NCBI GenBank assembly: GCA_025354165.1
Contig: JANXNI010000042.1
Span: 1-64,000, forward strand
Source of the DNA: Burkholderiales bacterium
Lineage (GTDB): Bacteria; Pseudomonadota; Gammaproteobacteria; Burkholderiales; Casimicrobiaceae
Length of the DNA stretch: 64,000 bases
Direction: 5' to 3'
Shown here: piece after piece, positions 267 to 54,625 of the stretch
Position numbering within the stretch: position 1 is the stretch's first letter
How the letters are laid out: the number at the start of each line of letters is the position of its first letter
Made by a program: the position numbers and the translations under genes
The notes under the pieces: model-generated
Told to the model about the DNA's origin: nothing
The model's input: the letters and a program-made list of their open reading frames with translations, nothing else
Databases searched by the model: none

Positions 267-382
267 CAGCTTTTTTACAGAACCATTGTTGGTAATAGGT
301 TGCGGGTCGATTTTGCTAATTGTCGACTTAAGCGGAAATCAGCACTCAGCCCCGATAGAAACGACGTTCTGTAAGAAAGCTG
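267..382 (+). repeat. 116-bp dispersed intergenic repeat, copy 1
   Basis: Begins CAGCTTTTTTACAGAAC and ends GTTCTGTAAGAAAGCTG, a 17-bp terminal inverted repeat with one mismatch, the best preserved pair in the window. The core GTCGAC is at element positions 56-61 and GCCCC at 83-87, the same positions as in the other five copies. It lies between the ABC ATPase end and the first TonB-dependent receptor. Confidence 0.85.
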
Positions 383-435
383 AATTGTCGTTTGTACAGG
401 CGTTTTGTTGCCGGGCTTCAGGAGTTGAGTAACAA

Positions 436-452
436 TTTCAAAGCGTTTGAAA
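436..452. promoter_or_regulatory. Short palindrome upstream of the first TonB-dependent receptor
   Basis: TTTCAAAGCGTTTGAAA is a perfect 7-bp dyad around GCG, followed by an AT-rich stretch (AATATAAGTTGTTAATAATC). The position, about 175 bp before the receptor start, would suit an operator. No regulator is identified. Confidence 0.3.
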
Positions 453-627
453 ATATAAGTTGTTAATAATCAATAGGTTGAGCGCCAAGCCATCGAGCGG
501 CGCGAAAGAGTTCCTAAGCGTAGAGATTGCGACCCCAACCCGGTGCAGGTAGGAAATAAGTCGTCTTGATGACAGAATCGAGGTGTCATCCTTTTTTTAT
601 CGCCCGCTTTGGGCCTCAGGGGTATTT

Positions 628-3375
628 ATGATTAAGAAGAAACAATTGGCTGTCGCAATTGCGGCAACTTTTGTAGCGACCGGCGTTGTTTACGCACAGA
701 CGCCACAGAAGGTCGAAAAAGTTGAAATTACGGGCTCGAACATTAAGCGGACAGACATCGAGACTGTCGCCCCGATCGATGTCATCACGCGTGAGCAGAT
801 CGAGCGCTCTGGTCAACCTACGATTGCTGAAGTGCTGCGTAATGTGCCAGCCAACACGGGTAACAGCTATTCGGAAAGCTTCTCAAACAGCTTTGCTCCG
901 GGCGCTTCCGGCATTTCGTTGCGCGGTCTTGGCCAAAAAGCAACCCTCGTCCTGATTAACGGTCGTCGTACCGCAGGTTACGGCTTCGCACAAAACCTTC
1001 AAGACACCTTCGTCGACCTGAACTCAATTCCGTCATCAGCGGTTGAGCGCATCGAAATTCTGAAAGATGGCGCATCAGCCATCTACGGTTCTGACGCACT
1101 GGCTGGCGTGGTCAACGTGATTCTGCGTAAAGACTATAAAGGTATTGAATTCTCGGCCGGTGGTGGCGTAGCCGCTGGTAACGGCGACTATCGCTTTAGC
1201 GCCACAGGCGGTTTTGGCGATCTGGGTCGTGACAAATACTCCGTACTGGGCGTGTTTGACTACTACAAGCGCGACATGGTGATGTTGAACGAGACCGACT
1301 TCGGTGCAAGCCGCGACGTGCGCGGCATCGGTGGTGGTCGTAACTATCAGTCGTTGACGGGTCTTGGCACGTGGCAGCAGTACACCAATGCAGGTGCTGC
1401 CCAGCAAAACTTCAGAGCGGTTGACAACTGCGCTGCTTCTGGTGGCACAGTCATGACTGGCCCACAAGCGGTTGCTGCTGGCTTGATCAACCTGTCGGGC
1501 AACCAGTCTGCTGCGACGCTCGCAACACTTAACGCCCGTGCTGCTGCTTCGAATACGTTCTGCACGTACGACGTTAACGGCGCGATTACAGCACTTCCTG
1601 GCACTGAGCGCTTCGGCTTCCTGGGTCGCGGTACAGTCGAAATTTCACCTACGCTGCAAGGCTACGGCGAAGTCGGTTTGTCCGAGGTCAAATCCAAGCA
1701 GATCTTCACCCAACCGTTCTTCAACACGACAGGGCTGAAGCCTACGGCTGCGGGTCTGCAGCCATTCGCCTACACGGTGAACTTTGCACCTGGTGTTGCT
1801 GGTAACCCATTCGGCACGCTCGCGCGTTACGCCGGTTCGCTTAGCGACATGGGCACCCGCGATTCGGAAATTAAGTCTGACTCGTATCGCCTGCTTGCTG
1901 GTTTGAAATACACCATCGGTCCATTCGACGGTGACAGCGCTGTGGGCTGGTCGCGCAACGAAGTGAACAACTTCAACTCTAACCGTCTGACCCTTGCTGG
2001 CGTGAGCTCTGCGTTCGGCATCACCACGGCCGCCCAGCCACCGGTTCCGACTGCCACGTCGTCGACGTACAACCTTAACAACTCGTCGCTCAACAGCGCC
2101 GCAGTTCGTGATTCGATTCGCGCGAACTTCAATCGCAAATCGACGTCTGAGTTGAAGTTCATCGACACGCGTGCTTCGACGGAATTCGGGCAACTTCCAG
2201 GTGGTCCTATCGGGCTCGCCGTTGGTGCAGAGTACCGCTCGGAGAGCCTTGTTGATTCGCCTGCGTTGATTGCTCAGCAAGGTCTGATCCTGGGTCAGGG
2301 CATTACGGCTACGAACGGTAGTCGCAACAGTTTCGCGATCTTCGCGGAAGCTGGGCTACCGATCCTCAAGACTCTTGAAGCCCAACTCGCCGTGCGTTCT
2401 GACCACTACAGCGACTACGGCAGCTCCACTGTGCCGAAAATCGGCCTGAAATGGAAACCAATCCCACAATTCGTTTTGCGTGCCAACTGGGGCGAAGGTT
2501 TCCGTGCTCCAACGCTGCCGGAGATTTCTCCTTCTGTCGCAACGTTCTTCACGCAGGTTAACGATCCGGTCACGAATGCAAACGGTGTGAACATTTCCGG
2601 TATTTACGCCGGTAATCCAAACCTCAAGGCTGAAACGACAAAGAGCACCACGATCGGTGCAGTGTTTGAACCTTCGCGTGACCTCAACATGAGCGTGAAC
2701 TGGTACAACATTGAGTGGAAAGACCAGATCGGCTCTTATGGCTTCCAGCAGCTTGTCAATGGCAACGGCATCATTGACGGCGTTCAGCGCGGCACAGTGG
2801 TTCGTGATGCGACAACCAACGCCATCGTTACGGTTTCTACGAACTTCACCAACCTGAGCAAAGTCACGACCAGTGGCCTTGATTTTGATGCGGTGTATCG
2901 CATGAATACGCTCTATGGTCGCCTCGCGTTTGACATGGGCGGTTCGTACATCGAACGGTACACGGTTGACGGTGGTGACTACGCGGGTAACAACGGCTAC
3001 GGCGCGTCGTTCCCACGTATCCGTGGTTTTGCTCGCGTGAACTGGGATCGCGGTCCTTGGTCTGGTGCGGCTACGGTTAACTATATCCATAGCTACTACC
3101 AGCAACTGGTGGCAGGATCTTATTACTCAACCGCGAACGACCCGCGTTATCAAACGGGCGTGCTCGGTGAAAAGATTGGCTCACGCACGACGCTTGATGT
3201 CTATGGCGGTTATGAATTCAACAACAAGTTGAAGATCAACGCTACGGTTATCAACGTCATGAATAGTCAGCCTCCGTACGATCCGGGCGCATCGTCAACT
3301 TACCTGTACGATTTCACGCAGTACGACGTTCGTGGACGTGCTTACCGCTTGAATTTGACCTACAAGTTCCGTTAA
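628..3375 (+). CDS. TonB-dependent outer-membrane receptor
   Basis: Encodes about 915 residues with the layout of a TonB-dependent receptor: signal peptide (MIKKKQLAVAIAATFVATG, cleavage near YAQ), a TonB-box-like stretch VEKVEITGSNIKR, a plug domain (roughly residues 40-160, with LRGLGQKATLVLINGRR and VERIEILKDGASAIYGSDA) and a long 22-strand barrel ending in an aromatic-rich strand YRLNLTYKFR. ATG 628 is preferred over the in-frame 583 start because CAGGGG precedes it and the signal peptide begins there. Such receptors take up siderophores, cobalamin, peptides or glycans at the expense of the proton motive force relayed by TonB. The substrate is unknown. An S9 peptidase lies downstream on the other strand and a second receptor follows, which hints at peptide-related substrates. 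Confidence 0.95.
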   Translation: MIKKKQLAVAIAATFVATGVVYAQTPQKVEKVEITGSNIKRTDIETVAPIDVITREQIERSGQPTIAEVLRNVPANTGNSYSESFSNSFAPGASGISLRGLGQKATLVLINGRRTAGYGFAQNLQDTFVDLNSIPSSAVERIEILKDGASAIYGSDALAGVVNVILRKDYKGIEFSAGGGVAAGNGDYRFSATGGFGDLGRDKYSVLGVFDYYKRDMVMLNETDFGASRDVRGIGGGRNYQSLTGLGTWQQYTNAGAAQQNFRAVDNCAASGGTVMTGPQAVAAGLINLSGNQSAATLATLNARAAASNTFCTYDVNGAITALPGTERFGFLGRGTVEISPTLQGYGEVGLSEVKSKQIFTQPFFNTTGLKPTAAGLQPFAYTVNFAPGVAGNPFGTLARYAGSLSDMGTRDSEIKSDSYRLLAGLKYTIGPFDGDSAVGWSRNEVNNFNSNRLTLAGVSSAFGITTAAQPPVPTATSSTYNLNNSSLNSAAVRDSIRANFNRKSTSELKFIDTRASTEFGQLPGGPIGLAVGAEYRSESLVDSPALIAQQGLILGQGITATNGSRNSFAIFAEAGLPILKTLEAQLAVRSDHYSDYGSSTVPKIGLKWKPIPQFVLRANWGEGFRAPTLPEISPSVATFFTQVNDPVTNANGVNISGIYAGNPNLKAETTKSTTIGAVFEPSRDLNMSVNWYNIEWKDQIGSYGFQQLVNGNGIIDGVQRGTVVRDATTNAIVTVSTNFTNLSKVTTSGLDFDAVYRMNTLYGRLAFDMGGSYIERYTVDGGDYAGNNGYGASFPRIRGFARVNWDRGPWSGAATVNYIHSYYQQLVAGSYYSTANDPRYQTGVLGEKIGSRTTLDVYGGYEFNNKLKINATVINVMNSQPPYDPGASSTYLYDFTQYDVRGRAYRLNLTYKFR

Positions 3376-3419
3376 TCGAGATGCTCTACGCTGCGGGTAA
3401 CCGCAGCGAAAGCAAAAAA

Positions 3420-3443
3420 GAGGGCTTCGGCCCTCTTTTTTTT
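3420..3443 (+). terminator. Rho-independent terminator after the first receptor
   Basis: GAGGGC-TTCG-GCCCTC stem-loop with a UUCG tetraloop followed by eight T residues, 45 bp after the receptor stop codon. Confidence 0.9.
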
Positions 3444-3796
3444 ATTGCGACCTGTAGCGATTGGTTTTGATAAGGCTATGCAGCGGTGCACTCATGGGCG
3501 CAAATACGTTTCAGCGTGCACAATAAAAGTCACCTTGACATTTCCCATTCTGGGTCGCGCGGCTTACGTCGCTGCCACAACCTGGCGCGCTTAGAAGAGC
3601 TCTACGGGCCGGATCTCCGGTCGAACGCGTTCCCTCGTGCGTTTGATGTTCGATAAAGCATCAAGACGCCTCGTGCGCAGCCTAATCTGATAGATGCTCC
3701 TCATCTAGGACAGGCGTTTGTCGCCGCATCGCTGCGGCCGCAAAGCGTGAAGTGGAATAGGGGGCCTCCCTCACGCAGCTTCGTGGATACGCCACA

Positions 3797-3823
3797 ATAA
3801 AAAACGGCCCCCAAGGGCCGTTT
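3797..3823 (-). terminator. Rho-independent terminator of the S9 peptidase gene
   Basis: Read on the minus strand, AAACGGCCC-TTGG-GGGCCGTTT is followed by a short T-run (TTTTTT then ATTG). It lies 30 bp past the peptidase stop codon. Confidence 0.8.
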
Positions 3824-3853
3824 GTCGTTGCCGAACTTCTGCTCAATCGGCGA

Positions 3854-5851
3854 CTATTTTCCGATTTGCTCATCGAGAAACTTGAGCACTTGCTTATACA
3901 GATCTACGTTGTTCTCCAGCCTGCCGTAACCGTGGCCCTCTTTGGCTTTGACCACGAATGCTTTTGCTGGATTGCCGGCCTCCTTCAGCGCTTTGTCCAT
4001 CCGGTAGATTTGGTCAATCGGCACGCGAATGTCGTCTTCGCCAGCGTAGAGGAACACGGCCCCTTTGATTTTGCTGGCATTGTTAACGGGAGAAATATCG
4101 CGGATGAACTGTGAGTCCAGGTCTTTAGTGCCTAAAACCGCTTTCCAGAACTCAACTCCAGAGTCGTTGCCGTAGGTATCGCCTTCAGGTGTCGTGAGCT
4201 GGTATTTGTAGTCAGTGACGGCCAAACCGGCAATCGCGCACTTGAACAAATCTGGTGTTTTCACCATTGCTTGCAATGCGGCATAACCGCCGTAGCTCGC
4301 GCCAGAGATGCAGACGCGTTTGGGATCGGTGTAGCCCTGCTCAACGGCCCATTTCAGCGCATCTTCATGGTCTTCTGACATCTTGCCGCCTACAGTGCCG
4401 AATCCTGCTGAGTAAACCTTGTTGCCCATGCCCGGCGTAATTCGGAAATTGGGCACGACGACAGCGTATCCACGCGATGCGAAAAGTTGACCTTCGCGTA
4501 CGCCAAATCCACCGCGGAATGTGTCGGCGCGGGCAAAAGGGCCACCGTGAATATGCACAATAGTGGGCAACTTGGTGCCAGGTTTGTAATCTTTTGGCAG
4601 AAACACGTAGCCCGGAATTTCGAGACCATCGCGTGTTTTATAGGTAAATGGCCGCTGTTCAACGAGTTTGCCGTCGAGCCACGGACGCGATGCGCCAATT
4701 TCTTCCAGGGTGCGTTTCTCTTCTTCCAGCAAATACCAGCGCGGTGGTTTCAAGTCCGAGAACGACGTGACCAACAAGCGCTTGCCGTTGCCAACGCGCA
4801 CAAATGAATTGATCGTGCCCGGCAGCGATGCGTCGATCAGTTTTTGCGTTTTGGCTCGTCCTTCGTCAACCCAAGTGACTTCCGGCTTGTCCGCTTCAAC
4901 ACGGTAGCCCAGAATCTGGTTGGTCTCAGGATGAATAATCGCGCCTGGAACGGTCTGTCCTTCTGAGTTTGCACCCATGTCGTAGCGCGGATGGCTGGCT
5001 ACCATTTCCCCGAGTTTTTTCGTATTCGGGTCGTAGCGATAGACCGCCATCGTGTCGCGATCTTTGTTAGTTGCCACCTGCATCATCTGATCGTCAGATT
5101 CAAACGCGAGCGGCACAATCACTGAGCCTTTGTCACGCGAGTAACGCGCAATTTCTTCCCAGGGAGCGCTCTCGCCTTTGCGGTAGTACACGACGCGCGT
5201 CAGCTCGTTTTTGACACCTGCGACTACCACACGAGGCACCTGTTTGCTATCGAGAGTCCATTCTTCGGTGAGATCGGCCGGACGACCTGACGTCAACAGT
5301 CGGGTGCGACCGTTGTTTAGATTGACGCGATACAAATCAACGGAATCGGCACTGGTCAGGTTACCCGATGCGATGATCTCATCGGTATTTCCGGGAATGG
5401 TGCTTTCCATGGTCAGACCGCGATAGATACGGTTGCCCGTTCCGCGTGTTTCACGGACGGTTGCCGCGAGTCGGCGAGAGCCAGAGCCATCGCGCCCCAC
5501 GACAAATAAACCACCGCCGTCAAACTGGCCTGGACCGGTCGGTGAGTTGGCTTGTCCCAGCGAGAACACCAGACGATCGTCGCCGACCCAGCGAACGCTG
5601 ACCACGTCGAAATCTTCAAACGAAGTGAGCAGAGTGCCTTTGCGGGTGTCGAGATCGAGCACCATCAGATTCATGCGGCCTTTGAGCGGCGCGGTCGCTG
5701 CGAGATATTTTCCGGAGCGCGATAAGGTGGGACCAGCCAACGAGGGGTTCTTGAAATACTCTTCAAGCGATACCGGTTCGGCAGCGACGGCGACCGACGC
5801 GGCCCCGACAAGGTTCAAGGCCAGCGCGAATGCCAGCACAAATTTCAACAT
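3854..5851 (-). CDS. Secreted S9-family (prolyl oligopeptidase-like) peptidase
   Basis: 665 residues. An N-terminal signal peptide (MLKFVLAFALALNLVGAASVAVAA) is followed by a beta-propeller-like region (about 30-390, with repeated YLAATAPLKGRMNLMVLDL-type blades) and a C-terminal alpha/beta hydrolase domain. The nucleophile motif GASYGGYA is near residue 520, the Asp is in GEDDIRVP near 604 and the His in EGHGYG near 640, giving a complete Ser-Asp-His triad. The family removes dipeptides or cleaves short peptides in the periplasm. It sits between two TonB-dependent receptors on the opposite strand and has its own terminator, so it forms a single-gene transcript. A role in processing imported peptides is inferred from the context. 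The exact subfamily (S9A-D) is uncertain; the domain order best fits acylaminoacyl-/dipeptidyl-peptidase-like S9C. Confidence 0.93.
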   Translation of the reverse strand: MLKFVLAFALALNLVGAASVAVAAEPVSLEEYFKNPSLAGPTLSRSGKYLAATAPLKGRMNLMVLDLDTRKGTLLTSFEDFDVVSVRWVGDDRLVFSLGQANSPTGPGQFDGGGLFVVGRDGSGSRRLAATVRETRGTGNRIYRGLTMESTIPGNTDEIIASGNLTSADSVDLYRVNLNNGRTRLLTSGRPADLTEEWTLDSKQVPRVVVAGVKNELTRVVYYRKGESAPWEEIARYSRDKGSVIVPLAFESDDQMMQVATNKDRDTMAVYRYDPNTKKLGEMVASHPRYDMGANSEGQTVPGAIIHPETNQILGYRVEADKPEVTWVDEGRAKTQKLIDASLPGTINSFVRVGNGKRLLVTSFSDLKPPRWYLLEEEKRTLEEIGASRPWLDGKLVEQRPFTYKTRDGLEIPGYVFLPKDYKPGTKLPTIVHIHGGPFARADTFRGGFGVREGQLFASRGYAVVVPNFRITPGMGNKVYSAGFGTVGGKMSEDHEDALKWAVEQGYTDPKRVCISGASYGGYAALQAMVKTPDLFKCAIAGLAVTDYKYQLTTPEGDTYGNDSGVEFWKAVLGTKDLDSQFIRDISPVNNASKIKGAVFLYAGEDDIRVPIDQIYRMDKALKEAGNPAKAFVVKAKEGHGYGRLENNVDLYKQVLKFLDEQIGK

Positions 5852-6043: not shown

Positions 6044-6052
6044 ACGTAAAAT

Positions 6053-6168
6053 CAACTTTCTCGCGAAACGCCTATCCAATATAGGAAAAAGTCGACTTTT
6101 TAAGAAAGTCGACTTTGTGCTAAAAATATGCGTAGCCCATAAATAACCGTCATCTAAGCGAAAAGCTG
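6053..6168 (+). repeat. 116-bp dispersed intergenic repeat, copy 2
   Basis: Runs from CAACTTTCTCGCG to GCGAAAAGCTG. AGTCGAC is at element positions 55-61 and GCCC at 83-86, matching the other copies without gaps. Unusually, AAGTCGACTTT also occurs a second time about 18 bp earlier inside this copy. Confidence 0.85.
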
Positions 6169-10683: not shown

Positions 10684-10716
10684 TCTGGCACCACCCAAGC
10701 GATCGGAGCCTGAATC

Positions 10717-11142
10717 ATGGGCATGAACGTAGGTAGTAGCGGCGACGAAGACCAGATCAATTCAAGCATCAACACCACGCCGCTAGTCGACGTGATGCTG
10801 GTACTTTTGATCATCTTCCTGATCACCATTCCGGTGGTCACGACATCGATCAAACTGAACCTTCCAAAAGAAGAAGTGCAGATTCGTGAATCGAAACCAG
10901 AAAATATCGTGATTTCGGTTAACGCCGATAGCAAGATGTTCATGTATGACACCCCGATCCGGGACATTCGTGATTTAACTGATCGCCTAAAAAAGGTTGC
11001 CAAAATGGATCCTCAGCCTGAGGTTCACATCCGGGGCGATTTGACGGCCACTTATGACGGTGTTGGTCGTGTCATCTTTGCCTGCCGCTCGGCGGGCATC
11101 TCAAAGATCGCGTTCTTGACAGAACCGCCAGCGCGGGAATAA
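10717..11142 (+). CDS. exbD: ExbD/TolR-family biopolymer transport protein
   Basis: 141 residues with a short cytoplasmic N-terminus, one transmembrane helix (residues about 24-46) containing the conserved Asp in NTTPLVDVMLVLLIIF, and a periplasmic C-terminal domain. That Asp is the proton-translocating residue in the family. The ribosome binding site GGAGC precedes ATG at a normal distance. It lies 33 bp after exbB, as expected for one operon. The start sequence (ATGGGCATGAACGTAGG) is nearly repeated in the next gene, which shows tandem duplication. Confidence 0.95.
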   Translation: MGMNVGSSGDEDQINSSINTTPLVDVMLVLLIIFLITIPVVTTSIKLNLPKEEVQIRESKPENIVISVNADSKMFMYDTPIRDIRDLTDRLKKVAKMDPQPEVHIRGDLTATYDGVGRVIFACRSAGISKIAFLTEPPARE

Positions 11143-11144
11143 CC

Positions 11145-11249
11145 ATGAAAGCAATCAAACTCATGGTCATCACCGTTACGCAACAAACCAGTCTGCGCGC
11201 GAACGCTCAAAATAGCGGCCACACGCAAAGGAGCCTGTCATGGGCATGA
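11145..11249 (+). CDS. Possible 34-codon ORF between the two exbD genes
   Basis: ATG 11145 is preceded by GGGA at a suitable distance and reads MKAIKLMVITVTQQTSLRA, ending in a TGA that overlaps the start of the following exbD. It has no recognised family. It could couple translation of the second exbD or be chance. Very tentative. Confidence 0.2.
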   Translation: MKAIKLMVITVTQQTSLRANAQNSGHTQRSLSWA

Positions 11250-11662
11250 ACGTAGGCAATAACAGCGGCGAAGGTGACGTCCTCGTCGACATGAACACTA
11301 CGCCGCTCATCGACGTGATGCTGGTGCTGTTGATCATGTTCATCATCACCATTCCGATTCAGTTGCATTCGGTGAATATGAATATGCCACCCGCTTCGAA
11401 TGTGAAGCCACCGGTCGAGCCCGAGATCGTCAAGATCGATATCAATGAGGCCAGCCAAATCTTCTGGAATGGCGCAATGGTCGCGGATAGGAACGAACTC
11501 CAAGCGAAGATGGCAGCGGCTGCCGCCCTGCCCACTCAGCCGGAGATTCACCTACGACCGAACAAGCTCGCCAGGTATGAGATCGTGGCCTACGTCATGG
11601 CGGCGTCGCAGCGCGCCGGACTGGTCAAGATGGGCATACTTGGTCATGAGCAATTCCTTTAA
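11240..11662 (+). CDS. exbD: Second ExbD/TolR-family protein
   Basis: 140 residues; same design as the preceding ExbD: short N-terminus, transmembrane helix with MNTTPLIDVMLVLLIMFI carrying the conserved Asp, periplasmic domain. Strong AAGGAG ribosome binding site. The two ExbD proteins differ in their periplasmic halves, so they are not redundant copies by sequence. Tandem exbD genes next to one exbB and tonB are known from TonB systems in Xanthomonas and relatives, where the second ExbD can be specialised; a specialised role here is inference. Confidence 0.94.
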   Translation: MGMNVGNNSGEGDVLVDMNTTPLIDVMLVLLIMFIITIPIQLHSVNMNMPPASNVKPPVEPEIVKIDINEASQIFWNGAMVADRNELQAKMAAAAALPTQPEIHLRPNKLARYEIVAYVMAASQRAGLVKMGILGHEQFL

Positions 11663-11707: not shown

Positions 11708-12409
11708 ATGGATTACTCATACAAACCGAAACAATCGAACAGGCGCATGGTGGCTGTGGCCGCCGTGGTTGCTTTGCACATATTTATCGTTTACGCGCTG
11801 GTCACGGGACTCGCGCGCAAAGCGGTGGATGTCATCAAGAAGCCGCTGGAAGCGAAGATTGTGGAGGAGGTCAAACTTCCGCCACCGCCACCGCCACCGC
11901 CACCGCCACCACCGCCGCCAAAGACGCCTAATCTGCCGCCACCACCGCCTGCTGCTCCGCCGCCACCTTATGTGCCGCCGGTTGAAGTTGTCGTTGCTGC
12001 GCCAGTTGCGCCGTCAATCACGACCACCTCTGAGCCCCCCAAAACCGAGTACAAGATCGCGCCGCCAGTGCCACCCGCGCCACCCGCGCCTGTTGCACCG
12101 CCAGCGCCACCTAGACCTGCGGTAACGCGGATTGGCATCGGTTCATTGCCGCAGTCTTGTCGTCCTGACTCGCCTCCTGCGCGTGAGATGAACAAGGCCG
12201 GTGTGGATCGAATTGAGGGTACTATCCTCGCTACTGTGAATGCGGACGGTACGTTCAGCAACGTGCGTGCGGGGAACATCACGCCCGGGAGCATGCGTAA
12301 TGCAGTGCAACGGACATTCGCCAACGCACTGACGGACCCATCCTGCAAGACTAAGGGCGACGGCGACAAGTACGACGTTGAGATCCCGTTCCTGATGAAG
12401 CTGGACTAA
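11708..12409 (+). CDS. tonB: TonB energy transducer
   Basis: 233 residues: a cytoplasmic start (MDYSYKPKQSNRR), one transmembrane anchor (about residues 14-34, VAVAAVVALHIFIVYALV), a long proline-rich periplasmic linker (about 55-140) and a C-terminal domain (about 145-233) with two cysteines, related to the TonB C-terminal fold (GTILATVNADGTFSNVRAG). It contacts the TonB boxes of outer-membrane receptors. It is the last gene of exbB-exbD-exbD-tonB and a hairpin follows. The linker includes 14 consecutive prolines from a CCG/CCA repeat. Confidence 0.93.
   Translation: MDYSYKPKQSNRRMVAVAAVVALHIFIVYALVTGLARKAVDVIKKPLEAKIVEEVKLPPPPPPPPPPPPPPKTPNLPPPPPAAPPPPYVPPVEVVVAAPVAPSITTTSEPPKTEYKIAPPVPPAPPAPVAPPAPPRPAVTRIGIGSLPQSCRPDSPPAREMNKAGVDRIEGTILATVNADGTFSNVRAGNITPGSMRNAVQRTFANALTDPSCKTKGDGDKYDVEIPFLMKLD
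11879..11920 (+). repeat. CCGCCA-type microsatellite coding 14 prolines in tonB
   Basis: Fourteen proline codons, first ten a strict alternation of CCG and CCA. A hexanucleotide repeat of this kind may expand or contract in frame by two codons per unit, changing linker length without breaking the gene. Translation of such a run normally depends on EF-P. Confidence 0.9.
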
Positions 12410-19636: not shown

Positions 19637-19701
19637 CTGTGGTAGCGGTTCTACCGCGATTGCCTGATGCCCGAGAAATCGCGATAGAACCGCTCCCACA
19701 G
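19637..19701. repeat. REP-like palindrome after ppa
   Basis: The arms CTGTGGTAGCGGTTCTACCG... and ...CGATAGAACCGCTCCCACAG are 25 bp long and 23 of 25 positions pair; 15 bp separate them. The outer GTGGGAGCGG head resembles the REP family of pseudomonads. No RAYT transposase is in the window. Confidence 0.75.
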
Positions 19702-21543: not shown

Positions 21544-21659
21544 CAACTTTTTCATGAAATGACATCTGAATGGGGGCTGATGATGATAAATGGCTAAAGT
21601 CAACTATCGATTAAAAGTGAAGCTAGCCCTCGTGCATACGTGCTTTCAGCTATAAGTTG
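21544..21659 (+). repeat. 116-bp dispersed intergenic repeat, copy 3 (inside the two-component operon)
   Basis: Starts at the base after the kinase stop codon and ends 22 bp before the regulator start. Element positions 55-61 read AGTCAAC and 83-86 GCCC. The ends are CAACTTTTTC and AAGTTG: position 3 is A and position 114 is T, whereas most copies have G and C there, a paired change that keeps the stem. Confidence 0.85.
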
Positions 21660-22543: not shown

Positions 22544-23668
<1,125 letters not shown>

Positions 23669-30904: not shown

Positions 30905-32743
30905 ATGACCCAAACCGCTCTAGAAATCCTCAAAACAACCTTCGGCTATTCAAGCTTTCGCGGCCCGCAGGCTGACATCATTGATTGCGTTGCGTCCGGC
31001 CATGATGCGCTCGTGCTCATGCCCACCGGTGGCGGCAAATCGCTGTGCTACCAAATCCCCGCGCTGCTTCGCCCCGGTCTGGCGATTGTGGTGTCGCCGC
31101 TCATCGCGCTCATGCAGGATCAGGTGGACGCATTGCGCGAGCTGGGCGTCGCCTCCGCGTTTTTGAATTCGTCGCTATCGCCCGTGGAGGCGACGAAGGT
31201 CGAGCGGCAGTTCATGACCGGCGAAATCAAGCTCCTGTACGTCGCGCCCGAGCGCCTCATGATGGAGAGTTTTTTAACGCAACTTGATCTGCTGCGAGAT
31301 CGCAATCAGCTTGCGCTATTCGCCATCGACGAGGCCCACTGCGTGTCGCAATGGGGTCACGATTTCCGCTCGGACTACTTGCAGTTGGCTGTCCTTGCAG
31401 ATCGCTTTCCGGGCGTGCCGCGCGTTGCATTGACCGCTACCGCCGACGCGTTGACACGAACCGAAATTCGCCTGCGCCTCAAACTCGACGACGCGCGTGA
31501 ATTCGTCTCCAGCTTTGATCGTCCGAACATCCGCTACACCATCACCGCGCGCGGCGACGAGCGCGAACAGTTGCTCGCCTTCCTTGCGGCACACGAGGGT
31601 GAGGCGGGCATCGTCTACTGCCTGTCACGAAAAAAAGTGGAAGCCACGTCTGAATGGCTTACTGAACAAGGCGTCAGGGCGCTGCCGTACCACGCCGGGA
31701 TGGACGCCGAAGCACGGCGCAAAAATCAGTCGCGTTTTTTGCGTGAATCAGGCCTCATCATGGTCGCCACCATCGCGTTCGGCATGGGCATCGACAAGCC
31801 CGACGTGCGCTTCGTCGTGCATCTCGATTTGCCGAAAAGTGTCGAGAGCTATTATCAGGAAACGGGCCGCGCTGGACGAGATGGCGAAGCCTCCGAAGCG
31901 CTTATGGTGTACGGCCTGACCGATGTCGTGCAACAGCTCCGATTCATCGACGCCAGTGGGGCCAGCGACGACTTCAAGCGCACCGGGCGCGTCAAGCTTG
32001 ACGCCTTGCTTGGCCTCTGCGAAACCAACGCCTGCCGACGCGGACGGCTCCTCGCCTATTTTGGCGAAATCAAGCCTGACGGCTACGCCTGCGGCAACTG
32101 TGACACCTGCTTAAGCCCGCCGAAAACGTGGGACGCAACCGAGCAGGTCGGTATGGCGTTAGCCGCGATTGAGGCCACCGGCCAGTGCTACGGCGCGACC
32201 TACGTCATCGAAGTGTTGCGCGGCGTCAACACCACGCAAATCCGCACGCGCGGTCACGATCAATCCGACGTGTACGGCATCGGCACCGCGTTCGACGATC
32301 CCGCGTGGAGGAACGTCATCCGTCAGATCGTCACGCTCGGTTGGGCGGAAATTGATGTCACGAATTACGGTGCCTTGCGCCTGACACACGCCGCCGCGCC
32401 CGTGATGCGCGGCGAGGTCACCGCGATGCTGCGCAAACTCGCCGAGGTCAAAACCTTCGGCAGCGTTGCGAAAGCCGCACCAAAGCGAACCAGTCGCAAA
32501 AACACGGTCGAACTGCCAGTGGACGAGGTGTTGCACGAAGCGCTCAAGCGCTGGCTGGTCGAAACCGCCGCCGCAGAAGACGTCGCCCCCTTCGCCATCC
32601 TGCACGACAACGTGCTCAAAGAAATCGCCAGCCGCAAACCGAAAGAGCGCAGCAAACTCGCCGATATCAACGGCATCGGCGAGAACAAATTGCGCAAATA
32701 TAGTGACGCAATTCTCAAACTGGTGTCGGATTTTCCGGGATAA
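30905..32743 (+). CDS. recQ: ATP-dependent DNA helicase RecQ
   Basis: 612 residues from ATG 30905 ([20 protein letters not shown]); the longer GTG 30821 frame adds unconserved sequence. Walker [15 protein letters not shown] is at 41-54, DEAH in [17 protein letters not shown] near 140, then the helicase C-domain ([24 protein letters not shown]), zinc-binding Cys ([12 protein letters not shown]...YACGNCDTC), winged helix and an HRDC domain ([19 protein letters not shown]). It unwinds branched DNA in recombination repair. The stop codon overlaps the next 116-bp repeat by two bases. Confidence 0.97.
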
Positions 32744-32857
32744 GCTTTTAGCTGTAACCCATACTGAATAGGGGCTGAAGGCAAAAAAGTGCCAAAGCCG
32801 ACTTTTGGCGAATTGAGCAGCTATCCCTTATTAAATGGTCGTTATGTGAAAAAGCTG
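32742..32857 (-). repeat. 116-bp dispersed intergenic repeat, copy 4
   Basis: Read on the minus strand it begins CAGCTTTTTCACATAACGAC, with AGTCGGC at positions 55-61 and GCCCC at 83-87. On the plus strand it overlaps the last two bases of the recQ stop codon. The far end reads AAGCTT, so the end base is mismatched here. Confidence 0.85.
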
Positions 32858-42880: not shown

Positions 42881-42996
42881 CAGCTTTATGACAAAAAGAC
42901 GGCTGCATATGGGCGTAGAGCTTAAAATGCAAATTGTTGACTTTGTCGTTTTATGAGCTGTATCCCATATAAAGTCGTCATTTTATGAAAAAGCTA
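42881..42996 (-). repeat. 116-bp dispersed intergenic repeat, copy 5
   Basis: Read on the minus strand: TAGCTTTTTCATAAAATGAC at the start, AGTCAAC at positions 55-61, GCCC at 83-86 and AAGCTG at the end. It lies between convergent genes, 9 bp past the hemerythrin gene's stop and 24 bp before that of the DUF3999 gene. Its alignment with copy 3 is especially close in the middle. Confidence 0.85.
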
Positions 42997-43005
42997 TTAG
43001 CTGAA

Positions 43006-50400: not shown

Positions 50401-50937
50401 GATGTCGATGATGCCGCCGCGTACCGCAAATTCACCTTGTGAGACGACTTGCGTGACATGGGTGTAACCGCCAAGCGTCATTTGCCGACGCAGCTTTTCG
50501 ACGTCGAGTTTCTGCCCTTTTTTGAGCGCAAATGTGCGCGCGGCAACGAAGCTGCGCGGAGCCTGTTTCTGAGTGGCCGTCGTCGCCGCGACAATCATCA
50601 CGTCGCACGCATGCGTGGCCAGCGCGTAGAGCGCTTTCAGGCGATCACTTACCAGATCAGGGTGTGGCGAGAAATGATCGTAGGGTAGCGTTTCCCAGTC
50701 GGAGAACTCGCGTACGCGGAGCGACGGGTCGAACCAGGCGATCTCAACGGTGAGCTGATGTACGTCCTGGGCGTCCGCGCAGGTGACGATCAGCGTGCGA
50801 TTGCTTTCGCGCAGCGTTGCGGCGAGCCGGGCTAGCGCGAGCGCAGTACCCGCACCTTCTGGACGAGCGACCATGGCACGCTCACCGTTTCGAGGCAGGG
50901 AAGGAAGTAACGCGGTAGTTTCAGAAGAAGCGGGCAA
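47497..50937 (-). CDS. mfd: Transcription-repair coupling factor
   Basis: 1146 residues. UvrB-like N-terminus (to about 350), RNA-polymerase interacting domain with VGDPVVHEEHGIGRYLGLVS near 480, then helicase motifs: VCGDVGFGKTEVALRAAF (Walker A, near 634), LVIIDEEHRFGV (DEEH, near 730), GRVGRSHHQAYAYLL and a TRCF C-terminal domain (FGLLPPATESLVSAHQL). It removes stalled RNA polymerase and recruits UvrA. The start is TTG 50937, supported by GAGG seven bases upstream and the lack of an ATG before residue 22 (MVARPEGAG). Stand-alone gene. Confidence 0.97.
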   Translation of the reverse strand: MPASSETTALLPSLPRNGERAMVARPEGAGTALALARLAATLRESNRTLIVTCADAQDVHQLTVEIAWFDPSLRVREFSDWETLPYDHFSPHPDLVSDRLKALYALATHACDVMIVAATTATQKQAPRSFVAARTFALKKGQKLDVEKLRRQMTLGGYTHVTQVVSQGEFAVRGGIIDIFPTGGTLPVRLDLFDDEIESIKTFEPDTQRTLYPVNDLSLLPAREFPTDEAGRTVFRQRFREVFEGDPSKSAAYKDVSNGIFPGGIEYYLPLFFDKAETLFDHAPRDAVFALLGDVHGVLTDFERETRERWGLLRGDSARPLLEPTELYLGRDDFLHELKAYSRYELKAGESDTTRRVPPMEIDRRMQRPLGALADFLANATQHSGRVLLCAESPGRLQTLQEMFVEHGLTPHNVEDFAGFLAATEGFCITPAPLFTGTILVDEKLSFVTEAEIYPSSTRSTRRKRVKTSNIDSMLKDLSEVKVGDPVVHEEHGIGRYLGLVSLDLGEGPTEFLHLQYASDAQLYVPVSNLHLISRYSGTSPEHAPLHTLGSGHWEKAKKKAAQQARDTAAELLNIYAQRAARTGHAFKVDWNDYEAFAAGFGFEETPDQSAAIQAVIQDLVAAKPMDRLVCGDVGFGKTEVALRAAFVALMGGKQVALLVPTTLLTEQHYNTFKDRFAPWAIRIEELSRFRSPKEIKATLEGMAEGKVDLVIGTHKLIQPDIKFKNLGLVIIDEEHRFGVRQKEQLKKLRAEVDVLTLTATPIPRTLAMSLEGIRDFSVIATAPQKRLAIKTFVAKGGDGLIREAILRELKRGGQVYFLHNEIETIENMRERLEAIVPEARVRVGHGQMGATQLEGVMRDFYQQRFQILLCSTIIETGIDVANANTILINRADKFGLAQLHQLRGRVGRSHHQAYAYLLIPGDDAISADAKKRLEAITQLEDLGAGFYLSMHDLEIRGAGEVLGDNQSGEMQEIGFSLYSEMLNQAVRALKAGREPDLDEPLGVTTEVNLHVPALLPNDYCAGVHERLVIYKRLANCEDEDSLNDLKEELIDRFGLLPPATESLVSAHQLRIAGKAVGVKKIDSAPERTIITFKPKPSFEPIKLITLIQKDGRYRLHGQDKVKIERPVPLLNDRARMVRDFFLALK

Positions 50938-51019
50938 AGCAAAACCTCACGAGAGGCCCCGCCTCACGCGATATCAGTCGAACAAGTTGAAATTATAGGG
51001 AGCGGGTGTCGCTCGGCAT

Positions 51020-51484
51020 TTACTGTGTCGGCGAAGACCGCAGCGGCGTTACCTTGCCGTTACCTATCAAAAACTCCACACGCAAAATCGCTTCACCTTT
51101 TTCGTCCTTGTGCGTGTAGCCAACGACAGAAACTTTCTCACCGACTTTAACGGGCACGACTTTCCACGATTCCATGCGTGTAAGCGGCGCGAGTTCGATT
51201 TCCCAGACTTTGTCGTGTCGCTTTGGCGCTTTGGCAGAGCCGAGAATCATTACGGCATCAACATTTGCGCCTTGTCTGGGTATGGCAAATCGTGTGAGTG
51301 CAGCGGGCGGAGCGGCTCCGTTCACTTCGAGCATGAATTCGGCGTGCGGGTTCTGCCATTTCACGCTTTTAACGACACCTTCTAGGTAAATCGGTTTCGT
51401 TTCGTCAAAACTACTCCAACCGTGATGAGCGAATGCCGCGGGACCCAGGAGCGCGAGCACCGAAACAAGAAGTACGCGAAACAT
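51020..51484 (-). CDS. DUF6152 family secreted protein
   Basis: 154 residues with a cleavable signal peptide (MFRVLLVSVLALLGPAAFAHHG). After it come SSFDETKPIYLEGVVKSVKWQNPHAE and VPVKVGEKVSVVGYTHKDEKG, which I associate with DUF6152 proteins, small periplasmic beta-rich domains often containing HHGW at the N-terminus. Possibly metal-related, but function is unknown. It lies 45 bp after the DUF6644 gene on the same strand. A 17-bp tandem duplication with its AGGA ribosome-binding sequence directly precedes the start. Confidence 0.85.
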   Translation of the reverse strand: MFRVLLVSVLALLGPAAFAHHGWSSFDETKPIYLEGVVKSVKWQNPHAEFMLEVNGAAPPAALTRFAIPRQGANVDAVMILGSAKAPKRHDKVWEIELAPLTRMESWKVVPVKVGEKVSVVGYTHKDEKGEAILRVEFLIGNGKVTPLRSSPTQ

Positions 51485-51518
51485 AATGAATCCTGAATGT
51501 GAATGAATCCTGAATGTG
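51485..51518. repeat. 17-bp tandem duplication in the ribosome-binding region of the DUF6152 gene
   Basis: AATGAATCCTGAATGTG occurs twice in a row (51485-51501, 51502-51518). On the minus strand each copy carries AGGATTCATT, so the ribosome binding site is duplicated; the copy next to ATG 51484 has AGGA at a 7-nt distance. Confidence 0.85.
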
Positions 51519-51529
51519 AACCGAATAAG

Positions 51530-52039
51530 TTAGACGTATGCTATCCAGCGGCCGCAAATAATTATGGCGATCCATAACACGAGCGAGAAGACGGCTTGCC
51601 CGCGCGTCAGAAGACTCGCAGGATTCAACGGTCCGCGACTGTGCAAAATCGCGGCATTGGTACCTGCCGTAAACAACAGCAGCATTTTCAAAAGAAACGC
51701 GCCGTTGCCAATGAAATCCGACGCCCGCGCGAGGAACATGAGGCCGCCGACCGTCGCCGCGAGCGTGAACCCAAGCAGCGTCCACGGGAGCGTTGCCGTG
51801 GCCAGCGTACGCACATCTATTGAACCGACTCCGAACGGGCGCACGCCGGCCAGACGCAAATCAACGATCCACAACGAGCCGAACGTGATCGCGATGGCGA
51901 TGATGTGTAGCGCCTCCAGCGTCGGATAAACCAGTGGCGCAGAGCGCAGCCAGACGGCAAACGGCCAGTGGCTCAGCGCGAGCGTAATGGCGGGATTCAA
52001 AGCGGGAAATTGACGAGCACAGTAAGTGGATTCTTCCAC
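51530..52039 (-). CDS. DUF6644-like membrane protein
   Basis: 169 residues with four transmembrane helices: PLVYPTLEALHIIAIAITFGSLWIVDL (about 35-60), TATLPWTLLGFTLAATVGGLMFLA, GAFLLKMLLLFTAGTNAAIL and AVFSLVLWIAIIICGRWIAYV. A His in LEALHIIAIA and a His in AAILHSRG are spaced like haem ligands in small membrane cytochromes. The four-helix arrangement matches proteins annotated DUF6644, commonly beside DUF6152 genes. Function is unknown. It is upstream of and in the same direction as the DUF6152 gene. Confidence 0.8.
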   Translation of the reverse strand: MEESTYCARQFPALNPAITLALSHWPFAVWLRSAPLVYPTLEALHIIAIAITFGSLWIVDLRLAGVRPFGVGSIDVRTLATATLPWTLLGFTLAATVGGLMFLARASDFIGNGAFLLKMLLLFTAGTNAAILHSRGPLNPASLLTRGQAVFSLVLWIAIIICGRWIAYV

Positions 52040-52278
52040 GGAACGAGCGGGGACCGGTACGGCAAACAGGTGATTTCACTTGTAAATCGACAATGACTAA
52101 GCTGGCCTTGATTTAGTAATGGATTGAAAGGTAAATGACGGCAGCCGCTGGTATCTTTTCGTGTACTGCTATATGTTGCCCAAGTATTGTCGCCCAATCC
52201 GCAGCGATACTTCGGGCACCGTCATACCCGCGCTCGAAGGCCGCAACCGCCTTCACCATGCTTCGAGGAGGAAGTCAT

Positions 52279-53616
52279 ATGGATGCCGACCCAAGTCCGA
52301 GACCCATTTACAAGTCGCTGTACTTTCAGGTCATCACGGCCATCGTGATCGGTGTGTTGCTCGGTCATTTCGCGCCGCAATATGGCGAGGCAATGAAGCC
52401 GCTGGGTGATGGCTTCATCAAGCTCATCAAGATGATCATCGCGCCGATCATTTTCTGCACCGTGGTGGTTGGTATCGCCGGCATGGAAGACATGAAAAAG
52501 GTCGGCAAGACCGGCGGATTAGCGCTCCTGTATTTCGAGGTGGTGAGTTCAATTGCGTTGATCGTTGGCCTGGTGATCGTGAATGTCGTTCAGCCCGGCG
52601 TTGGCATGAACGTTGATCCGCATACGCTCGACACCAAGAGCCTCGCTGCGTACACCGGGCCGGGCAAGATGCAGGGCACGGTCGATTTTTTGCTGGGCAT
52701 CATCCCGTCGACGGTGGTCGATGCATTTGCCAAGGGCGAGATGCTGCAGGTGTTGCTGTTCGCAATGATGTTCGGCTTCGCATTGCACCGTTTTGGTGGG
52801 CGCGGTACGCTGGTGTTTGACTTGATCGAGAAGACCTCGCATGTGCTGTTCACCATTGTCGGTTTCATCATGAAGCTCGCGCCGATCGGTGCGTTTGGCG
52901 CGATGGCATTTACGATTGGCAAGTACGGCGTCGGCTCGCTGGTATCGCTGGCGCAGCTTATGGCGACGTTCTACGCGACGTGCCTGATCTTTATCTTTGT
53001 GGTGCTGGGATCGATTGCAAAGTTCAACGGCTTCTCGATCTGGAAATTCATCAAGTACATCAGGGAAGAATTGCTGATTGTGCTCGGCACATCGTCGTCC
53101 GAGTCGGTGCTGCCGCGCATGATGGCGAAGATGGAAACGCTAGGCGCGAAAAAATCAACCGTTGGGCTTGTGATCCCGACCGGCTATTCATTCAATCTTG
53201 ACGGTACGTCAATCTATCTCACGATGGCTGCCGTGTTCATCGCGCAGGCTACCAACACGCCAATGACGCTGATTCAGCAGCTCACGCTGCTTGCCGTGCT
53301 GCTGCTTACGTCCAAAGGCGCGGCTGGCGTCACCGGCAGCGGATTCATCGTGCTCGCCGCGACGTTATCGGCCGTGGGCGGCGTACCCGTCGCCGGACTC
53401 GCGCTGATTCTCGGGATTGATCGTTTCATGTCGGAGGCGCGGGCGCTGACTAACCTGATTGGCAATGGGGTGGCGACGCTGGTCGTTGCGCGCTGGACGG
53501 GTGATCTGGACGTCGCCGTGATGCAGAAACGGCTGGATGAAGGGCCGACGGAGGCGACGGCGGATCATCCCGAGGAAGTGATTGACGCGGTGACGAGTCA
53601 TATTGCGAAGGCTTAG
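52279..53616 (+). CDS. dctA: C4-dicarboxylate:cation symporter DctA
   Basis: 445 residues from ATG 52279, with a strong GAGGAGGAAG just upstream; the longer frame to 52135 has no conserved sequence. The protein begins [21 protein letters not shown] and has the family blocks [45 protein letters not shown] (serine-rich re-entrant loop), [19 protein letters not shown] and [20 protein letters not shown]. It takes up succinate, fumarate and malate with protons or sodium. It stands alone and is followed by a REP-like palindrome; a DctB/DctD pair is not in the window. Confidence 0.97.
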
Positions 53617-53624
53617 CCATCGCG

Positions 53625-53664
53625 TTGTAGGAGCGGCGAAAGCCGCGAAAGGCCGCTCCTACAA
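53625..53664. repeat. REP-like palindrome after dctA
   Basis: A 40-bp near-perfect palindrome with arms TTGTAGGAGCGGC and GCCGCTCCTACAA and an inner hairpin GCGGCGAAAGCCGC. It starts 9 bp after the dctA stop and ends 12 bp before the DUF6356-like stop on the other strand, so it may end both messages. Confidence 0.8.
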
Positions 53665-53675
53665 ACCCTTTGCCA

Positions 53676-53912
53676 TCAGTGCTGATTGCGCTTCGTCACC
53701 ATGCGCGTGTGCAATTCGGTAATCGCTTTGCTACCGGTCTTCTCGAACGCAAACGGCAACACCGCGTGAACGAAGCAGGCGAGACTTGCTTTGAGCAGCG
53801 CCCAGCCAAAGCTGCCCGCTACTACGAAATGCTCGCCGTACGTCTCGCCGACTGACGCTGGATGCTCGGCAAAAGCGCGATTGACAGTAGTAATAAATGA
53901 GCAGTTTTGCAT
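53676..53912 (-). CDS. Small DUF6356-like membrane protein
   Basis: 78 residues. FAEHPASVGETYGEHFVVAGSFGWALLKASLACFVHAVLPFAF includes one hydrophobic helix; the pattern HPxSVGExYxEH..VA..FG is what I recall of DUF6356 proteins in alpha- and betaproteobacteria. The function is unknown. No strong ribosome binding site precedes ATG 53912. The gene is convergent with dctA. Confidence 0.65.
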   Translation of the reverse strand: MQNCSFITTVNRAFAEHPASVGETYGEHFVVAGSFGWALLKASLACFVHAVLPFAFEKTGSKAITELHTRMVTKRNQH

Positions 53913-54041
53913 GGCTGATTTGCCGTTGAGTTGATAGCAAAATCATAGGACTCGAAGCGTGCAAGGCGTTTGCGAGTTTGATGTGTTGGCGCAGTGATGT
54001 GAGCAGTAAAATCTACAAAAGTGTAATTTTTGGAGTAAATT

Positions 54042-54503
54042 TTGCTCGACAAGGTAGATAGGAAGATTTTGGAACTCCTGCAGGTTGATGCCACGCTCGC
54101 GCTGGCGTCACTGGCCGAACAGGTCAATCTCACCCAGACACCGTGCTGGCGGCGCGTCCAACGACTGGAGGCCGAGGGCTACATCACACGCCGCGTGGCG
54201 CTTTGCGATCCACAAAAATTAAACGTTGGCGTCACCGTGTTTGTGTCAATCAAGACGCGACAGCACAACGTGAAATGGCTGGAGCAATTCGCCGCCGCCG
54301 TCAGCGCAATTCCCGAAGTTGTCGAGTTCTACCGGATGAGCGGCGACATCGATTACCTGCTACGCGTCGTAGTGCCGGACATCGCGGGCTACGACCTCGT
54401 CTACAAAAAACTCATCCGCTCGACCGAGTTGTTCGACGTCAGCTCTTCGTTTGCGATGGAACAAATCAAGTACACGACCGCGCTGCCAGTAACCGCCGCC
54501 TGA
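54042..54503 (+). CDS. Lrp/AsnC-family transcriptional regulator
   Basis: 153 residues. The N-terminal helix-turn-helix LDKVDRKILELLQVDATLALASLAEQVNLTQTPCWRRVQRLEAEGYI is typical of Lrp, followed by the RAM domain (VTVFVSIKTRQHN, VVEFYRMSGDIDYLLRVVV). Lrp proteins bind DNA as dimers to octamers and respond to amino acids. The start is TTG 54042, seven bases after TGGAG. The target is unknown; the adjacent genes include small membrane protein genes on the other strand. Confidence 0.95.
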   Translation: MLDKVDRKILELLQVDATLALASLAEQVNLTQTPCWRRVQRLEAEGYITRRVALCDPQKLNVGVTVFVSIKTRQHNVKWLEQFAAAVSAIPEVVEFYRMSGDIDYLLRVVVPDIAGYDLVYKKLIRSTELFDVSSSFAMEQIKYTTALPVTAA

Positions 54504-54509
54504 CCACAA

Positions 54510-54625
54510 CAGCTTTTCTATGAAAGCACTACTGCATGGGGGCTAAAGTCATAAAGCGCAATAACTCGACTTATGAAAAAAATGGCTTTTAGCCCCGGTG
54601 CCAACGTCATGTAACGAAAAAGCTG
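54510..54625 (-). repeat. 116-bp dispersed intergenic repeat, copy 6
   Basis: Read on the minus strand: CAGCTTTTTCGTTACATGAC start, AGTCGAG at positions 55-61, GCCCC at 83-87 and AAGCTG at the end. It fills the gap between the Lrp gene stop (54503) and the permease stop (54626-54628), ending exactly at the latter. Confidence 0.85.

Follow-up and report, generated by a model that had tools for sequence, protein, structure and literature searches.

The six copies of a 116-bp intergenic element in the window (the 64-kb stretch of DNA analyzed here) belong to a genome-wide family, found in one group of environmental bacteria, with a defined site design, a constrained length, conserved positions, species-specific sequence dialects and over-dispersed spacing, and without covariation; the sequences suggest that the elements are binding sites of a candidate chromosome-organizing factor. 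In the reading that we prefer, and in which we have moderate confidence, each element is a rigidly spaced dyad site, recurring about every 10 kb, that acts at the level of DNA and is recognized by a putative DNA-bending or DNA-wrapping factor, which could be a dedicated nucleoid protein or gyrase. The factor, the wrapping and the architectural role are what we infer from the observed features.

An earlier note on this DNA had described the six copies (Table 1). The alignment of all six showed that each is exactly 116 bp long and gap-free over 116 columns, with G56, T57, C58 and G83, C84, C85, C86 invariant in six of six copies and A55 present in five. The copies stand out clearly from unrelated window sequence: in a leave-one-out matrix they scored 41.0–72.9 bits, while the best unrelated place reached at most 2.7 bits. 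The proposed terminal inverted repeat proved correct as a symmetry but not as a feature limited to the ends, since the symmetry spans the whole 116 bp with the dyad at 58/59. The plus and minus orientations assigned to the copies turned out to be arbitrary, because each copy also scores high on the opposite strand. For copies 4 and 6, conserved gene adjacency was looked for in the gap comparison between species, and none was found.

Table 1. Copies of the element in the window, with their surroundings and occupied counterparts in other genomes
Copy	Position	Length (bp)	Strand	Context	Occupied counterparts
1	267..382	116	none	upstream of gene for TonB-dependent receptor	matching site (by coordinates) in G005, G012
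2	6053..6168	116	none	gap between divergent genes for S9 peptidase and TonB-dependent receptor	orthologous gap in G005; matching site (by coordinates) in G012
3	21544..21659	116	none	0 bp from stop codon of sensor kinase gene, 22 bp from start of LytTR regulator gene	orthologous gap in G005, G012, G014, G013
4	32742..32857	116	none	overlaps last two bases of recQ stop codon	
5	42881..42996	116	none	gap between convergent genes for hemerythrin-domain and DUF3999 proteins	orthologous gap in G005, G012, G001
6	54510..54625	116	none	convergent gap nearly filled; 6 and 0 bp to two called stop codons	

The family is not confined to these six copies. The 621 kb sampled of the window genome contain 58 copies, 52 of them exactly 116 bp long, which gives about 440 per genome, and the many same-length intergenic matches that, according to the note, would support a family are seen in this sample, as is the same design in congeners. 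In the seven congeners modeled the elements are mostly 116–118 bp long, while their sequence differs as species dialects, and all copies within one genome share one dialect. The identity of paralogues was on average 0.54 and at most 0.72 among 52 G000 copies (1326 pairs), and its highest values were 0.64, 0.62, 0.63 and 0.53 in G005, G011, G013 and G002, respectively. The center of the element (columns 39–59), which was not used by the finder, is conserved in G000, G005, G011 and G013, and weakly in G002. The G013 set comprised 17 copies, the G002 set was the weakest (66 bits), and the G007 set has a high control (21 bits). When a similar iterative procedure was applied as a finder control to G017, G019, G020 and the small congeners G009 and G016, it gave at most two places per start model. 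Nothing convincing was found in the stretches sampled from four genomes of three other genera, viral contigs gave no exact matches to one degenerate pattern, and the 108 and 51 kb sampled from two small-genome congeners yielded no element; R1 gave five matches genome-wide in G009. Either the reading factor is dispensable at the genus level, or its dialect in the small-genome congeners was missed.

The consensus of 33 copies is a palindrome, which is partly built in because its two arms were pooled. At either end it continues for about 3 bp more (YAW before CAGCTTTT), to about 122 bp, which in part explains why the copies abut stop codons. The half-site is 58–59 bp long, and two facing halves are rigidly spaced around the dyad; the element has YAW-CARCTTTT ends, a box at about columns 18–36, an A-tract block at about columns 44–47, and a dyad core, such as AGTCGACT. 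In G005 the elements of 118, 117 and 116 bp numbered 19, 12 and 3 versus 18.4, 13.2 and 2.4 expected, which shows that the half-site lengths combine independently. The specificity per element was 66–103 bits in five dialects. The A/T-only block was poor in TpA in three of the four dialects tested, with 28 versus 51.8 ± 3.9 expected in G000 (0 of 5000 permutations as low), 1 versus 11.6 in G005, and 2 versus 10.0 in G013, while this avoidance was not seen in G011 (15 versus 14.8). The periodicity of AT content had its peak at 9.5 bp in two dialects and at 7.5–8.25 bp in three, with none of the five peaking at 10.5 bp, and the AT-column power between 9.5 and 11 bp had p values of 0.001–0.039 in the five dialects. 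The idea that the A/T class is kept independently of base identity was rejected, as informative consensus bases differing between dialects keep the A/T-versus-G/C class about half the time. Because of this result and of the periodicity away from 10.5 bp, the argument for wrapping is a weak one. Local inverted repeats, read as sub-dyads, were also seen by eye in the arms of G013, G011 and G007.

From one species to another, the elements mostly keep their positions and change in sequence. Orthologous intergenic gaps were scored as occupied in both genomes, in the first only, in the second only, or in neither. The closest pair, G005 and G012, gave 7/1/0/75, where the one extra element is weak; G005 and G013 gave 4/0/0/39 despite their different consensus, and G000 and G002 gave 3/0/0/24, while the comparison of G000 with G005 included two G000-only sites and one strong G005-only site. 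The orthologous copies of G005 and G012 are 53–66% identical with 0–1 gap (eight pairs), and the G000 and G005 copies compared align with 1–14 gaps (five pairs; 116 versus 117–118 bp). Copies at orthologous sites resemble each other no more than paralogues do, which means that the divergence at shared sites reaches the paralogue level.

The spacing of the elements is too even for chance. Over 139 intervals the mean was 10.7 kb, or about one element per 11 kb, with a mean CV of 0.52 versus 0.85 ± 0.07, and no interval was under 2 kb versus 17.4 expected, with none of 4000 nulls as low. Over-dispersed recurrence of this kind, at steps of roughly 10 kb, is a feature of topological-domain boundaries that the elements share. 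Among the G000 gaps of at least 110 bp, an element is present in 57% of the convergent, 20% of the co-directional and 19% of the divergent ones. The element ends lie close to stop codons, and 9 of 48 start-side neighbors in G000 start within 30 bp of the element, where start distances and the widths of gaps are approximations, as genes were called with a simple codon-usage ORF caller. No strand asymmetry was detected in 23 co-directional copies (p 0.22).

In the mechanism that we propose, each element would be a double-stranded DNA recognition site composed of the two facing half-sites, at which a protein complex may bend or wrap about 120 bp. The bound element could then serve as a chromosome-architecture mark, such as a supercoil barrier, an anchor or a topoisomerase loading site, and these marks would recur at intervals of about 10 kb, for the most part where transcription units end. 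If the reading factor changes its specificity in a lineage, all sites of the genome would drift to a new dialect in the same places. More tentatively, the family could be a genus-specific system of about 400 composite 116–122-bp dyad sites that would divide the chromosome into loops of fairly uniform size, near 10 kb, its sites being inherited vertically in place and its recognition sequence rewritten genome-wide several times as the putative reading factor evolved, in a cis–trans co-evolution of an architectural code. The roughly 10-kb supercoil domains of bacteria are generally not regarded as bounded by fixed sequences. A hard-wired, evenly spaced and position-conserved family, if true, would make fixed domain boundaries directly testable, and the dialects provide a natural experiment: the specificity of one factor appears to have switched at hundreds of sites while the sites were retained.

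The earlier note had compared the element to a structured RNA and to ERIC-like repeats, and both the structured-RNA and the mobile-repeat readings fail their tests. A structured RNA, or a processing or termination signal acting in the transcript, would agree with the location of the element ends near stop codons and with the folding of all six window copies, which is better than the mean of their own shuffles (z −1.2 to −6.5). However, a check for covariation found no compensatory excess over shuffles for dyad pairing or local hairpins. The arm pairing within copies was 31.48 of 58 versus 31.32 ± 0.48 for permuted arms (33 copies). An arm-to-arm hairpin was rejected, as double changes in 9 of 34 pairs among the six copies were no excess over shuffles, and none was seen with 33 copies; local arm hairpins had no covariation in G000, G005, G011, G002 and G013, and pairing within arms gave no excess and no outstanding helix (104, 38, 40, 26 and 32 halves of five dialects). 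The RNA reading is also opposed by the lack of strand asymmetry and of a conserved T-run in the flanks, and by the nine close G000 neighbors, which hardly leave space for a terminator to be followed by a separate promoter, so that an action in the transcript seems very unlikely. An existing Rfam entry does not explain the element either, since none was at the gathering score in the window and one copy, searched at E<5, had no credible match. The conservation is column-by-column and motif-like, which counts for the DNA-site reading. The contrast with decaying transposons drawn in the note holds, as the sequence has diverged and the length has not, but the likeness to ERIC does not extend to mobility. 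Ancient small mobile repeats of MITE, REPIN or ERIC type might have spread once, evenly spaced by transposition immunity, which can space insertions, and persist only as remains; the intergenic, symmetrical, hundreds-strong family and the sites occupied only in G000 or G005 fit this history. Still, the positions are mostly kept between species, close paralogues are lacking, and 2–9-bp flank repeats in 42 G000 and 32 G005 copies were nowhere clearly above permutation (largest 7 versus 6.6 at 2 bp). Y1_Tnp had 15 matches in five genomes, and a RAYT link was rejected because the 10 of these 15 loci that were examined had neither an element pair scoring over 12 bits nor an arm scoring over 20 bits. 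Moreover, the dialect changes at fixed positions and the length kept despite saturation would require selection after insertion, and we consider a mobile origin quite improbable. Gene conversion among copies, producing concerted evolution in place of selection on each site, would account for the single dialect per genome and for orthologues being no closer than paralogues. Yet with about 13% of the genome sampled, recent conversion should have left some near-identical pairs, and none was found among paralogues with the maximal identities given above, which leaves this explanation extremely unlikely.

The elements could alternatively be hard-wired strong sites of gyrase (or topoisomerase IV), with a wrapped segment of about 120–130 bp and the cleavage gate at the dyad, where sites downstream of genes would absorb positive supercoils and the dialects would follow the drift of the enzyme; we regard this as unlikely. 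The elements were found in one genus only, whereas gyrase is universal, and their overall peak period is 7.5–9.5 bp. On the other hand, the length, the dyad, the AT-column power at 9.5–11 bp and the preference for 3′ ends and convergent gaps resemble the 130-bp gyrase motif with its phased 10-bp G/C variation, and gyrase is enriched downstream of operons (PMC6379681, in part). Co-evolving chromosomal gyrase sites were proposed as a hypothesis (PMC6463007, in part), and the element spacing is near that of the 10-kb domains named in part of PMC3420936. The specificity of the elements contrasts, however, with a gyrase motif described as too degenerate for standard algorithms (PMC6379681, in part).

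The DNA-site reading was also compared with known systems. REPINs and REP-BIME, which are associated with RAYTs, are likewise hundreds of extragenic symmetrical elements with two inverted halves and a critical spacer length, but their 16-mers are highly conserved, compensatory changes are common in their hairpins, and they come with a RAYT (PMC3116915, in part). The elements described here lack covariation, keep their positions, are absent from the 10 Y1_Tnp loci examined, and in the 52 copies compared do not form near-identical groups around a master sequence. ERIC/RU-1 (127 bp) and the MITEs RUP, NEMIS, RPE and CIR (~110 bp) are similar in size, palindrome or inverted repeat and mostly intergenic location, but are small mobile elements (PMC2229807, in part), while the elements here have no target duplication, kept orthologous positions and a species-specific consensus; the comparison with ERIC covered length and behavior. 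The DNA uptake sequences of Neisseriaceae are also genome-wide motifs, with species dialects tracking the cognate receptor (PMC3630211, in part), but they are 10–12-mers in thousands of copies and not evenly spaced 116–118-bp dyads. The strong sites of gyrase (Mu SGS) and its motif in E. coli, which are ~130–150 bp long with a central gate, two arms and phased composition and are enriched downstream of operons, are comparable to the elements in size, two-armed layout and location, and perhaps in phasing, but they are degenerate or single-copy, and the parts of PMC6379681 and PMC6463007 cited here do not describe a fixed-sequence dialect family. A literature search on evenly spaced intergenic palindromic repeats found no matching report among the matches listed. 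Sites of the matS/MatP type are palindromic, as are the elements, and are read by an architectural protein, but they are 13 bp long and confined to one macrodomain, whereas the elements are distributed chromosome-wide.

The six intergenic copies proposed in the earlier note were confirmed, and they could be aligned without gaps over 116 columns with the GTC and GCCC positions invariant. With a matrix trained on five copies and used to find the sixth in the window, the held-out copy scored 41.0–72.9 bits versus at most 2.7 bits for the best unrelated place. The inverted repeat noticed at the termini is present, but it is not only terminal and spans the full length of the element as two facing halves around a dyad at columns 58/59; the opposite strand of every window copy likewise scored high in the matrix scan. 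The symmetrised 33-copy consensus, in which both arms were pooled and palindromy is partly by construction, runs from CAGCTTTTCGCTGAAATGACCATTGCATAGGGGCTA... to the dyad AGTCGACT, and each end of the element extends about 3 bases further (YAW). No Rfam family reached its gathering score within the window, and one copy used as a query at E<5 returned only rows far under their gathering scores.

Coordinates of the elements and of other observed features
Sequence	Position	Feature
Window	267-382	Copy 1
Window	6053-6168	Copy 2
Window	21544-21659	Copy 3
Window	32742-32857	Copy 4
Window	42881-42996	Copy 5
Window	54510-54625	Copy 6
Window	19637-19701	REP-like inverted repeat of 25 bp outside the 116-bp family; 92% complementarity, 15-nt spacer, GGTAGCGGTTCTACCGCGATT-type arm
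Window	23106-23405 and 11879-11965	Low-complexity coding repeats (period 9; CCGCCA/CCGCCACC runs)
Window	10717-11662	Two adjacent ORFs, an apparent tandem gene duplication, with common 36- and 67-nt stretches (86-87% identity)
Own genome (G000), contig C58	14400-14648	Sole Y1_Tnp (RAYT-like) match in this genome; one in-frame TAA
Own genome (G000), contig C4	159400	Strong lone arm (38.7 bits) without partner arm; sole orphan arm >16 bits in the 621-kb sample, contig-edge copy aside
G011 (congener)		Seven Y1_Tnp matches
G006		Longer GTAGGAGCGGC..GCCGCTCCTACA hairpin adjoining the orthologue of copy 3

The search for further intergenic copies was run on the source genome, G000, where R1, a covariance model from the six window copies, gave at least 150 matches with both strands counted (best 150 of 1121 candidates). 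A 462-kb sample contained 41 copies above 15 bits, with a reversed-sequence control of at most 3.9, while a 621-kb sample (the window, C72:1-360,000 and C4, one extra contig-edge copy excluded) contained 58 copies among 275 gaps of ≥80 bp. Exactly 116 bp was the length of 52 of the 58, and the total extrapolates to about 440 elements per 4.72 Mb. The identity of these 52 copies was 0.54 on average and at most 0.72 (1326 pairs), so that no copy in the sample stems from a recent duplication.

The design is common to the seven congeners modelled, while the consensus differs by species. Neither modal length nor centre was forced by the finder, because it used only columns 1–38 of each arm and allowed lengths of 112–123 (108–125 for G013, 113–120 for G007).

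Species dialects of the element in seven congeners
Genome	Copies	Lengths	Remarks
G005	36 in 427 kb	118/117/116 bp = 19/12/3, two others
G011	21 in 200 kb	20 exactly 118 bp	centre TTTTYRAAAA
G013	17 in 200 kb	16 exactly 118 bp	arms ACGAC...GGT
G002	16 in 200 kb	13 of 116 bp
G012	9 in 140 kb	116-118 bp
G014	7 in 116 kb	116-118 bp
G007	20 in 120 kb	15 of 118 bp	control 21 bits

At E≤0.001 R1 matched 13 of 16 congeners and none of 23 genomes outside the genus. This distribution on its own is weak evidence for restriction to the genus, because R1 misses G002, which carries a version; therefore, stretches from other genera were scanned with five species models. No family was found in 339 kb from G017 and G023 (one genus), G019 and G020; only the G013 model gave single rows above control (9 vs 5, 13 vs 6, 16 vs 6), and with an iterative finder on G017, G019 and G020 single rows did not grow into a set. 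The samples of two small-genome congeners, G009 (108 kb of 2.5 Mb) and G016 (51 kb of 2.6 Mb), contained no elements, possibly reflecting loss coupled to genome reduction; R1 nevertheless lists five matches across G009.

Occupancy was compared in orthologous gaps, defined by reciprocal-best neighbour genes. The counts (both/first only/second only/neither), which are not independent as the pairs share sites, were 7/1/0/75 for G005-G012, 4/2/1/46 for G000-G005, 4/0/0/39 for G005-G013, 3/0/0/24 for G000-G002, 3/0/0/19 for G012-G013, 2/0/0/15 for G000-G012, and 1/0/0/6-15 for each of five further pairs; G011 pairs had no shared gaps with the element and are uninformative. The G005-only site relative to G012 scored 21 bits (length 113), the two G000-only sites relative to G005 scored 41 and 36 bits, and the G005-only site relative to G000 was strong (75 bits). 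The copy 1 site, matched by coordinates, is also filled in G005 and G012, and at the copy 3 locus, aligned by eye in nine genomes, the element is clear in five and altered or doubtful in the others. G005 and G012 proteins have a median identity of 91% (99 sampled orthologues), while their orthologous copies are only 53–66% identical, as paralogues are, with 0 or 1 gap in 8/8 pairs; the five G000/G005 pairs, at wider distance, have 1–14 gaps because lengths shift from 116 to 117–118. Length agreed within 1 bp in 7/7 shared G005-G012 element pairs, versus 3/31 element-free orthologous gaps of ≥80 bp (approximate, as it depends on our gene calls). Place and length kept while the sequence diverges would be expected if stabilising selection acts on motif and length.

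In a 42-copy G000 set, overlap with called genes never exceeded 20 bp; in G005, 1 of 32 copies went beyond this, into a weak ORF. Elements occupied 21/83 convergent, 26/355 co-directional and 11/82 divergent gene pairs in G000, at a median distance of 22 bp to stops (n=68; 14 within 3 bp) and 109 bp to starts (n=48; 9 within 30 bp). Convergent pairs with an element numbered 10/27 in G011, 6/27 in G002, 4/29 in G013 and 8/56 in G005, where divergent pairs were as many (8/55). The 139 intervals from seven stretches of five species had a mean of 10.7 kb and a minimum of 2.26 kb. Compared with 4000 nulls of random gap choice weighted by gap type and width, the mean CV was 0.52 versus 0.85±0.07, and no interval was below 2 kb versus 17.4±3.5 expected (0/4000 nulls as low); the low CV was clear in 6/7 stretches (G002, p 0.22). 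Along the G005 chromosome R1 matched throughout, at 98 places in nine bins (6–15 per bin).

The structured RNA that had been suggested earlier was not borne out. The covariation check, run on arm pairing and local helices, gave none beyond expectation: arms of the same copy paired at 31.48/58 versus 31.32±0.48 for arms of different copies (33 copies), no helix was prominent within 104, 38, 40, 26 and 32 halves of five dialects, and 23 co-directional copies had no strand asymmetry (p 0.22). The half-lengths in G005 combine randomly (expected 18.4/13.2/2.4 for 118/117/116 bp), as two independent half-sites would. In the A/T-only block, TpA was avoided in G000 (28 vs 51.8±3.9 expected; 84/104 halves), G005 (1 vs 11.6; 24/38) and G013 (2 vs 10.0; 24/32), but not in G011 (15 vs 14.8; 26/40). 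We interpret this avoidance as a sign that minor-groove shape is read.

Among known repeats, the likeness to ERIC proposed earlier holds for fixed length with diverged sequence but not for mobility: ERIC and other MITEs are mobile according to PMC2229807, while here no target duplication beyond chance was found (42 G000 and 32 G005 copies) and the places are mostly fixed between species. REPINs accompany a RAYT and have compensatory hairpin changes (PMC3116915, PMC8049555); here no element lay at the 10 Y1_Tnp loci examined out of 15, and compensatory changes did not exceed expectation. The closest evolutionary parallel is DUS dialects, although DUS (PMC3630211) are short and abundant, unlike the elements. 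No account of such a family was found in the literature searched, a collection with few subscription papers.

The element is a rigid two-half dyad site that stays in place and is read out as DNA; its dialects differ by lineage, and its copies are evenly spaced. It would be read by a protein, and the even spacing, gene-end placement and AT-column periodicity suggest that it may be bent or wrapped and have a role in chromosome topology. AT columns had power at 9.5–11 bp in five dialects (p 0.001–0.039), although the strongest period overall was 9.5 bp for only G000 and G013, against 8.25 for G005 and G002 and 7.5 for G011; the A/T class is not retained where bases differ between dialects, which counts against bending or wrapping. 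Gyrase would be the best known candidate factor, given its 130-bp motif with phased composition and downstream enrichment (PMC6379681), the Mu SGS as a known site (PMC6463007) and comparable 10-kb domains (PMC3420936). However, the element specificity of 66–103 bits would probably fit a dedicated factor better.
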